Positions 43,515 through 59,238 of a stretch of DNA of 64,000 bases are shown here, in pieces (positions within the stretch are counted from its first letter, which is position 1; every line of letters starts with the position of its first letter). The position numbers were made by a program, and so were the translations under genes. This stretch comes from Methanocorpusculum sp. GTDB taxonomy: Archaea; Halobacteriota; Methanomicrobia; Methanomicrobiales; Methanocorpusculaceae. The stretch spans positions 124,001 through 188,000 of the forward strand of contig NZ_JAUSPQ010000007.1 of NCBI RefSeq assembly GCF_030655665.1, given 5' to 3'. The notes under the pieces are model-generated. The model was not told the origin of the DNA, searched no databases, and was given only the letters and a program-made list of their open reading frames with translations.

Positions 43515-43727
43515 GAAGCACTTAGGTGCTGACTGAAGTAAGTCCGACGTGTCTGTCTACTAAGACACTGCCATATGGCTATGGGATTACGACGAGTCAG
43601 CTGTATTATACATGCTGCTCTTTTCGTGACTTACGACCATACCTGTCAAATTACAGTATCCGCGAATACGTCGTCAGGTTGGTTCTCCACCCGGTACGGA
43701 TGGGCGGACAGTCTCTTTCGCGAGGTG
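43515..43727 (+). ncRNA. Structured leader or small RNA before S15
   Basis: A region of about 210 bases rich in stems. They are AGCAC/GTGCT (43517-43530), GTGTCT/AGACAC (43549-43568), the palindrome GCCATATGGC (43570-43579), and a long hairpin at 43589-43627 with ACGA/TCGT, GAG/CTC, CAGC/GCTG and TGTA/TACA steps around a TTA loop. A TATA-like stretch lies near 43485-43494. It could be a 5' leader for S15 autoregulation or an independent small RNA. I do not recognise it as tRNA, RNase P RNA or SRP RNA. Confidence 0.5.
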
Positions 43728-57370: not shown

Positions 57371-57609
57371 GGTGAAGCGCACCTCCGTTTGATAAATATG
57401 GAAAGTCTAGACGATTAATCCTTGTGGCTGAGTAAAATGATTTTACTCCAATAATTTCCAAATACGGGACAGTGGAACCGGCAACATAACCGATAAACAA
57501 GGACAGGAGATATATCAATCCTCTATGCATCAGATAACATGCAAACTAATTGATCCATTTTTCTCATCCGAATTACGAACATTCCTTATGTCATGAACAC
57601 AGACATGAT

Positions 57610-57698
57610 ATTGGGGTGCTGTTGCAGATCTAAATCTGACTGCAACGGCTGAGATTATACCCATATAACCTGATCCGGGTAATGCCGGCGTAGGGAGT
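57610..57698 (+). promoter_or_regulatory. TPP riboswitch (THI element)
   Basis: The thiamine-pyrophosphate riboswitch core is readable. GGGGTGC starts at 57613. A P3 stem GTTGCAG/CTGCAAC (57621-57627 and 57640-57646) leads into GGCTGAGATTATACCC (57647-57662). These are followed by ACCTGATCCGGGTAATGCC and GGCGTAGGGA (57668-57696). All strongly conserved blocks are present. The P1 stem looks short and contains a wobble. It lies immediately upstream of thi4-thiE, so it should lower expression when TPP is high. Confidence 0.93.
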
Positions 57699-57726
57699 CG
57701 TTTTCCTATATTTGCCTGTGCATTAT

Positions 57727-57745
57727 CCGCCTAGATTCAGGGAGG
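57727..57745 (+). promoter_or_regulatory. Candidate Shine-Dalgarno sequestering hairpin
   Basis: CCGCCT (57727-57732) can pair with AGGGAGG (57739-57745), which contains the ribosome-binding site of thi4 (ATG 57754), with one G-A mismatch. This would be a translational expression platform for the riboswitch. It is an inference from pairing alone. Confidence 0.4.
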
Positions 57746-57753
57746 ATAACAGA

Positions 57754-58521
57754 ATGGATTTGGAAGTAACCAAAGCAATCACAGATTCCTGGTTTTTAAG
57801 ACTACAGAATAATCTTTGTTTCGATGTGGCAATTGTAGGAACAGGGCCGTCAGGGCTTATTGCCGCACTAAAAATTGCAGAAGCAGGCTTTAAAGTCTCT
57901 ATGTTTGAGAGCAAACTTGCTCCGGGCGGCGGTATGTGGGGCGGAGCCATGCTGTTTTCATCAGTTGCGATTCAGAATGAAGCTGTATATATTTTGGATG
58001 AACTTGAGATTCCCTATGAACGATACAACGATAATCTCGTCATATGCGACAGTGTTCTGGCAACCTCTGCCCTGATATATAGGGCAGCAAAGAGAGGTGT
58101 CCTAATTCACAACGGTATGAGCGTAGAAGATGTGGTATTTAAGGACAATAGAGTGTCAGGAGTTGTTGTGAACTGGGGTCCTGTTGTAAGAGAAGGACTT
58201 CATGTAGACCCTCTTTCATTCAGAGCAAAGATTGTGGTAGATGCAACTGGACATCCCTGCATGATTTCAGAAACAGTTGCAAAAAAGAATAATGTCACTC
58301 TCAATACGCCGACTGGAAAAGTCTGTGGCGAGCGTTCTCTAAATGCCGCTGAGGGTGAGACAGAAACAGTGCTAAATACCAAAGAGATTTATCCGGGGCT
58401 CTATGTCTGCGGTATGGCAGCAAACGGAGTATTTGGATCCCCGCGTATGGGACCAATATTTGGAGGAATGCTTCTTTCAGGAGAAAAAGTTGCGAAACAG
58501 ATTATTGAAGAGTTAAAATGA
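57754..58521 (+). CDS. thi4: Thiamine thiazole synthase (Thi4)
   Basis: A 255-residue Thi4 that builds the thiazole precursor of thiamine from NAD and glycine. The Rossmann motif DVAIVGTGPSGLIAALKIAEAG is near residue 24, followed by the glycine-rich APGGGMWGGAMLFS near 53. The thiazole-binding C-terminal GMAANGVFGSPRMGPIFGGMLLSG is near 227. GGGAGG precedes the ATG. The segment VDATGHPCMISETVAKK near 164-180 covers the sulfur-donor position of Thi4; yeast has Cys there and methanogens often have His, whereas I read Val at the matching place, with one Cys nearby (HPC). Alignment is uncertain. It overlaps thiE by four bases. Confidence 0.92.
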   Translation: MDLEVTKAITDSWFLRLQNNLCFDVAIVGTGPSGLIAALKIAEAGFKVSMFESKLAPGGGMWGGAMLFSSVAIQNEAVYILDELEIPYERYNDNLVICDSVLATSALIYRAAKRGVLIHNGMSVEDVVFKDNRVSGVVVNWGPVVREGLHVDPLSFRAKIVVDATGHPCMISETVAKKNNVTLNTPTGKVCGERSLNAAEGETETVLNTKEIYPGLYVCGMAANGVFGSPRMGPIFGGMLLSGEKVAKQIIEELK

Positions 58522-59150
58522 CAAAAAATGATTTCGGGCTCTACCTGATAATCACAAAACCTTTTTTTCCCTATAAAAAAATCGCCGAAACTGCGGTTAA
58601 GTATAATGTGAAATATCTCCAGTTGAGAGAAAAAGAATTAAGCGACAGAGATATTCTGCAGGCTGCTGGTGAAATCATGAGTGTAACAAACGGAACTGAA
58701 ACTCGGTTTGTGCTGAATGACAGGGCCGACCTTGCATATCTCTGTGGTGCGGACTGCCTTCATCTGGGCCAGGAAGATATCAGCATAACAGATGCAAAAA
58801 AGATATGCGGCGAAAAGGTTAGTGAATTTGGACTCTCGACCCATAATCTGAAACAGGTAAAAGAGGCCGTAAGGCTAAAACCTGATTATATCGGATTTGG
58901 ACCGGTATTTCAGACCCCCACTAAGAAAATACCCGACCCCGTCACCGGAACAGAAATCATCGCTGAGGCAGTAGAATTGGCCGGAGATATTCCGGTCGTT
59001 GCAATCGGAGGCATCAATGGAGAAAATCTCACCAGTGTTCTGGATGCAGGTGCAAAAAACGTGTGCATGGTCAGATATTTTATGGACAGCGTTCATTTTG
59101 AGACGAGAGTAGAAAAGACGGTTGACATCCTGAAAAATTACGACAGATAA
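58518..59150 (+). CDS. thiE: Thiamine-phosphate synthase
   Basis: A 210-residue TIM-barrel enzyme joining the thiazole phosphate with HMP-pyrophosphate. It has KYLQLREKELSDR near residue 34, FVLNDRADLAYLCGADCLHLGQED near 63-85, GFGPVFQTPTKK near 125 and VAIGGINGENL near 160. Length usual. Coupled to thi4. No ThiC or ThiD gene lies in this window, so the pyrimidine branch is elsewhere. Confidence 0.96.
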   Translation: MTKNDFGLYLIITKPFFPYKKIAETAVKYNVKYLQLREKELSDRDILQAAGEIMSVTNGTETRFVLNDRADLAYLCGADCLHLGQEDISITDAKKICGEKVSEFGLSTHNLKQVKEAVRLKPDYIGFGPVFQTPTKKIPDPVTGTEIIAEAVELAGDIPVVAIGGINGENLTSVLDAGAKNVCMVRYFMDSVHFETRVEKTVDILKNYDR

Positions 59151-59164
59151 TTCGAAAAAAACAG

Positions 59165-59238
59165 TGCTGCGAGAGGGATCCGAACCCCCGATCTCGGGAT
59201 TATGAGTCCCGCGCCCTAACCAGCTAGGCCACCGCAGC
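59165..59238 (-). tRNA. tRNA-Met (anticodon CAT), elongator-like
   Basis: Minus-strand cloverleaf. The acceptor GCTGCGG pairs with TCGCAGC through one G-U, the anticodon loop CTCATAA has CAT, the T-arm GGGGG-TTCGGAT-CCCTC is complete and the discriminator is A. An initiator would show AGCGGG-type ends and a GGG/CCC anticodon stem, which are not seen. It could also read isoleucine AUA codons if modified; sequence alone does not decide. Confidence 0.9.

Follow-up and report, generated by a model that had tools for sequence, protein, structure and literature searches.

A TPP aptamer in the thi4-thiE leader of a methanogen

Are archaeal TPP riboswitches relics or imports? A locus of Methanocorpusculum sp. 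bears on this question: in the window, the 64,000-nt stretch of DNA analysed here, a first-pass annotation had placed a TPP aptamer upstream of thi4, remarking that known archaeal ones are few. That remark agrees with the literature, in which only the fluoride riboswitch of Thermococcus kodakarensis was counted as experimentally determined in archaea (2021 paper, PMC8241225) and TPP was named as the only widespread bacterial riboswitch class met outside bacteria (PMC3766115). In the passages of PMC8241225 that cite Speed et al. 2018, the T. kodakarensis element appears, like ours, as a natural archaeal riboswitch presumed to act on translation; it differs in ligand and fold and has been studied experimentally, whereas the window switch is known from its sequence.

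The cmscan search of the window revealed a TPP aptamer (RF00059, the THI element) at 57602-57713 on the plus strand; it scored 67.8 bits, where the gathering cut-off is 54.3 (E 3.5e-11 for the window), and matched the model over its full length, positions 1-105 of 105. The span first proposed, 57610-57745, starts just inside the 5' edge of this aptamer and stops at the end of the thi4 Shine-Dalgarno sequence (SD). As is usual for the family, the element precedes thiamine-biosynthesis genes; it ends 40 nt upstream of thi4 and thus lies in the 5' leader of thi4-thiE. The ligand-binding core, GCUGAGA and CCUGAU...GGGUAAUGCCGGCG.AGGGA, was read in both the sequence and the alignments, and the whole thi4 leader outperformed 200 of 200 shuffles in folding (z -3.56). 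Binding of TPP by this aptamer would be expected from the known class. Unlike the typical RF00059 element, that of the window resides in a methanogenic archaeon, misses the optional P3a stem, has a longer P3 and a weak P1 in which three of the five model pairs form, and is faced by an anti-aptamer strand aimed at L5/P5.

Both gene names given at first pass proved right. The thi4 frame (57754-58521, plus strand) encodes a thiazole synthase that the tree assigns to the bacterial-type Thi4 group; it scored 295 bits with TIGR00292 (cut-off 148.3), and the structure closest to it is 7rk0, 'Thiamine thiazole synthase'. Following the TIGR00292 family description, the enzyme may be predicted to be sulfide-dependent rather than of the single-turnover type that donates a cysteine sulfur. 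The thiE frame (58518-59150, plus strand), for thiamine phosphate synthase, overlaps thi4 by 4 nt and scored 166.3 bits with TIGR00693 (cut-off 145.1). A candidate archaeal TATA-like box, CTTATGT, occupies positions 57585-57591 of the plus strand, ~24 nt before the GGGG of the aptamer, and would start the RNA near P1, at approximately 57607-57614; a T/A-rich box recurs at this distance in 11 of 11 archaeal loci.

On its 190-kb contig, the cassette is flanked by secDF-EFR1 on one side and by tRNA-Met-surE on the other, the tRNA-Met (CAT; 59164-59238, minus strand) coming directly behind it. That the host is archaeal, as first noted, is further attested by an S15-Methanomicrobia ribosomal protein leader in the same window (RF03137, a known family; 43517-43590, plus strand, 64.2 bits) and by two single-contig congeners bearing the same element. 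Elsewhere, the source genome holds a second, resident ThiE in a ThiM-ThiE pair (G000:C5:77024-78387). Like many relatives, it also has two ThiC paralogues above cut-off (G000:C6:52057-53322 and 285266-286462); no TPP aptamer was found near either of them, the one in the window being the sole RF00059 match in the whole 1.81-Mb genome (98% complete).

A conserved strand that can pair with the aptamer or with the SD region

The first-pass annotation had also pointed to a potential pairing that hides the thi4 ribosome-binding site. Indeed, the leader contains a switch strand, GCATTATCC (GCAUUAUCC; 57720-57728, plus strand), that can form 9 bp with GGGUAAUGC (GGGTAATGC; 57677-57685, plus strand), a stretch comprising the last two bases of the P5 5' strand, loop L5, and the first base of the P5 3' strand. 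The UUAUCC of this strand (TTATCC in the DNA) and the CCU that follows find alternative partners in AGG and GGAUAA around the SD (57739-57749), yielding an SD-sequestering hairpin, UUAUCC-G-CCU / AGG-GA-GGAUAA, at 57723-57749 of the plus strand (-9.1 kcal/mol in the window). Anti-aptamer pairing and SD hairpin compete for one strand and are mutually exclusive; involvement of the SD in an alternative pairing is shared with bacterial translational TPP switches. The SD, GGGAGG (57740-57745, plus strand), is located 8 nt before the ATG, and the 16S rRNA of the source genome ends in ...GGATCACCTCCT, complementary to GGAGG, which identifies 57741-57745 as a proper Shine-Dalgarno sequence.

We compared this platform across 13 loci, 11 archaeal and two bacterial. 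The 9-base switch strand is identical in all of them, within spacers that vary around it, those before it in both length and sequence. Its pairing with L5/P5 gave standard pairs in 100% of the cells of the 13-locus alignment, and in 31-56% when slid by 1-3 columns; a 9-11 bp complement taken alone occurs in ~0.3-16% of shuffled spacers. The L5 pairing showed no covariation across these 13 loci, the aptamer holding L5 invariant; the pattern is thus one of conservation, and covariation was dropped as proof of the anti-aptamer helix. As for the SD hairpin, one two-sided change was observed, its pairs being mostly conserved. Folding of the 3' part alone produced a comparable hairpin in 12 of the 13 loci, the exception being L003, where it is no better than shuffles.

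When the window leader was folded freely, the anti-aptamer state came out 8.5 kcal/mol more favourable and the unpaired value of the SD was 0.76; it fell to 0.24 when the aptamer was enforced. The same treatment lowered SD exposure at nine of the 13 loci, left it approximately equal at two (L002 and L009), and shifted it the wrong way at two others (L003 and L010). Folding and conservation thus back a hidden ribosome-binding site, with exceptions, and anticipate a TPP-induced translational shut-off with which the folding of most relatives, not all, agrees. The best reading of the platform is ligand-induced SD sequestration, with putative repression of translation by TPP, for which ligand binding and the direction of switching would follow the known class.

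Switch and Thi4 are found together in Methanomicrobiales

Within the genus, six out of 25 genomes contain a match to RF00059; the class as a whole gave 11 among 232, every one of them from the order Methanomicrobiales. Five of these 11 genomes represent a second family, one member of which matches a Methanogenium MAG (L045). Nine loci exceed the RF00059 cut-off, the other two reaching 52.9 and 52.7 bits. The aptamer is upstream of a Thi4 gene in 11 of 11 switch-bearing genomes, all fully covered copies of thi4 are intact, and ThiE comes next in all loci except L013, truncated by a contig end. The cassette thiE is broken by a frame change at L004:2420-3045 (single-contig genome G031) and by an internal deletion of ~120 codons at L011:2445-2686 (Methanogenium-type G397; identical in L045). 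Aptamer and thi4 are intact at L004 and L011, and both genomes have another ThiE elsewhere; the cassette thiE therefore looks dispensable, switch and thi4 being kept.

Within the genus, Thi4 above cut-off occurs in exactly the six switch-bearing genomes and in none of the 19 switch-less congeners (e.g. G016, G032, G012, and G017), several of which are incomplete. Switch and Thi4 are thus present together or missing together, in line with the first-pass idea that the riboswitch arrived with thi4-thiE. ThiC, ThiM, and a further ThiE were identified in most members of the genus, and the more complete switch-less Methanocorpusculum genomes retain ThiC and ThiM-ThiE in the absence of Thi4, which suggests that much of the genus relies on thiazole salvage rather than synthesis. 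Judged by SurE identity, the switch-less genomes tested (64-76%) are more distant than a switch-bearing one (90%), so that the distribution could be explained by a single acquisition within one subclade of the genus. Four switch-less genomes keep secF-EFR1 without thi4-thiE behind, and in the two that were read EFR1 is trailed by other genes. Starting from surE, no empty site could be compared, as surE of the switch-less congeners is not beside the other flank. In two switch-less congeners, other genes separate tRNA-Met from EFR1 over a distance of ~3.5-4.3 kb, and the stretch around it may therefore be a site of gene turnover.

Bacterial relatives of the cassette

The best relatives of this Thi4 beyond these archaea are bacterial proteins, 54-61% identical, from Bacteroidota, Spirochaetota, Cloacimonadota, Neomarinimicrobiota, and Verrucomicrobiota. 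Among 38 bacterial loci scanned, which derive from homologues sampled by similarity to the query, 13 carry a TPP aptamer immediately ahead of thi4, which is followed by ThiE in 12, and the order aptamer-thi4-thiE was found in Spirochaetota, Bacteroidota, Cloacimonadota, and Neomarinimicrobiota. The cassettes of a Spirochaetes MAG (L048) and a Neomarinimicrobiota MAG (L111) share with the archaeal loci the element, the gene order, and also GCATTATCC followed by an SD, whereas the remaining bacterial loci lack this strand; cassettes of the same order occur further at L049, L050, L051, L053, L064, L091, L094, L098, L100, and L122. Convergence on GCATTATCC is possible because any L5-pairing strand must read much alike. 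The TATA-like box, on the other hand, sets the archaeal loci off from the bacterial cassettes.

Phylogenetic analysis of Thi4 united the switch-linked archaeal sequences in a single clade (100/99). A split (100/98) divides this clade, together with the bacterial proteins, from the resident archaeal Thi4, and forcing the two archaeal groups together was rejected (p-AU 0.016). The resident Thi4 of Methanomicrobiales (e.g. L018 and L156-L160) belong to the same enzyme family, TIGR00292, but constitute a separate clade (100/100), and no aptamer was found at resident archaeal thi4, thiE, or thiM-thiE loci. Similarly, the ThiE tree groups the switch-linked proteins with bacterial ones (98/95), but an AU test did not reject their grouping with archaeal ThiE (p 0.143). 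The first-pass annotation had looked to these two phylogenies for a bacterial origin: both place the switch-linked proteins with bacteria, the covariance match exists, and close relatives carry the aptamer. Since the inner bacterial branches are poorly ordered and the bacteria were chosen by query similarity, the trees point to bacteria as a whole rather than to a nameable donor. L009 and L010, which belong to one genus, fall apart within the archaeal Thi4 clade, a hint that the cassette may have moved among methanogens. Phage records gave no more than short matches with the core of the aptamer. Collectively, the bacterial grouping, the common gene order, and the presence of GCATTATCC in two bacteria make it most likely that the cassette came whole from bacteria.

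Alternative readings of the locus

Many bacterial TPP riboswitches work through terminators, and the aptamer might likewise act on transcription, by attenuation, instead of translation. Short T-runs do occur in some spacers, and TTTT stands at 57701-57704; however, no terminator-like site was found on the plus strand of the leader region, and the SD takes part in the alternative pairing in 12 of the 13 loci, so attenuation strikes us as improbable. We give equally little credence to a decayed or unresponsive relic, in which the aptamer would be read through and thi4-thiE expressed constitutively. The weak P1, the platforms of L003 and L010, weak by folding, the second, unregulated ThiE, and the cassette thiE broken in two relatives are all compatible with decay. 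Against it, the core of the aptamer persists along with the switch strand and the SD hairpin in 11 archaeal loci that span two families and have diverged spacers, and thi4 is intact wherever fully covered.

Concerning origin, an ancestral archaeal riboswitch could have descended vertically and been lost in most Methanomicrobiales. Reports of TPP riboswitches from each of the three domains (PMC3766115, PMC3486863) would fit this, as would the single clade that unites the switch-linked genes of both families and the ThiE test, which tolerates an archaeal grouping. Against such descent, the switch-linked Thi4 sides with bacteria and stands away from the archaeal Thi4 resident in the same order, no aptamers accompany resident thi4 and thiE, and the platform strand is common to two bacteria; the probability of this reading is accordingly low. 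Bacterial contamination of a metagenome-assembled genome can be practically dismissed. The genome of the window is in 11 contigs, and another match of the phylum scan, L007, does resemble a bacterial contaminant contig, yet the identical secDF-EFR1 / tRNA-Met-surE order in a single-contig 1.80-Mb congener (G013) led us to reject this reading; G031, also a single contig, bears the element as well, and switch-less congeners retain secF-EFR1.

L007 itself (G199:C51), with an aptamer of 79.7 bits and thi4, was set aside as an archaeal case in view of the ribose-type ABC-transporter genes on its contig and its long-branch Thi4; it is probably a bacterial contaminant in a MAG filed under the same archaeal phylum. 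L008, on a 3.2-kb contig, was also left out of the archaeal cases. Separately, a sub-threshold TPP aptamer (42.3 bits) was detected directly upstream of ThiM-ThiE at L012:1501-1646 (G346:C9; wider stretch L204), on a contig from another lineage of the phylum that is clearly archaeal by its Cbf5, archaeal uS4, RNA polymerase D, and SecY genes. Its SD (AAGGAG) seems to lie inside the 3' strand of the aptamer itself, and L012 may represent a separate archaeal TPP riboswitch, independent of the cassette, that occludes its SD directly.

Proposed regulation and significance

We thus regard it as very probable that the window harbours a true TPP riboswitch, acting as a translational repressor of the thi4-thiE operon, in a cassette transferred from bacteria into Methanomicrobiales. 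Without TPP, GCAUUAUCC at 57720-57728 would pair with L5/P5 of the aptamer (57677-57685), leaving the thi4 SD free for Thi4 and ThiE to be made. Upon TPP binding, the aptamer would keep P4-P5 and let go of the switch strand, which would then pair with the SD in the hairpin at 57723-57749 and block the ribosome; thi4 would be silenced, and probably the overlapping thiE too. Riboswitch, thi4, and thiE would have entered Methanomicrobiales as one bacterial cassette. Once placed under an archaeal promoter, it would have enabled a host already equipped with ThiC and the ThiM-ThiE salvage pair to make thiazole de novo under regulation.

Neither the riboswitch class nor the genes nor the control logic are new, and Rfam scans of public genomes would list such sites; indeed, a bulk scan of GTDB genomes that included the TPP family is already published (PMC11621547). 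Among the papers covered by our literature search, none describes a TPP riboswitch from Methanomicrobiales; the 2019 survey 'Riboswitches in archaea' (Gupta and Swati), met as a citation in PMC11549558, could already list it. The interest of the locus resides in its archaeal host, the cross-domain transfer, and its testability.

Riboswitches are hardly documented in archaea, and here a whole regulatory unit can be traced from one domain to the other along with its genes, two bacteria even sharing its expression platform. On balance, we favour the view that methanogens received a complete bacterial riboswitch regulon, made up of aptamer, L5-targeting translational platform, and thi4-thiE. Under an archaeal promoter and with its platform preserved, this regulon would function with archaeal ribosomes, and in Methanocorpusculum it would determine whether a de novo thiazole enzyme is present at all. 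Cultured relatives probably carry the switch and Thi4; together with the joint absence of both from congeners, this would allow a direct test of a bacterial-type translational riboswitch in an archaeal cell.
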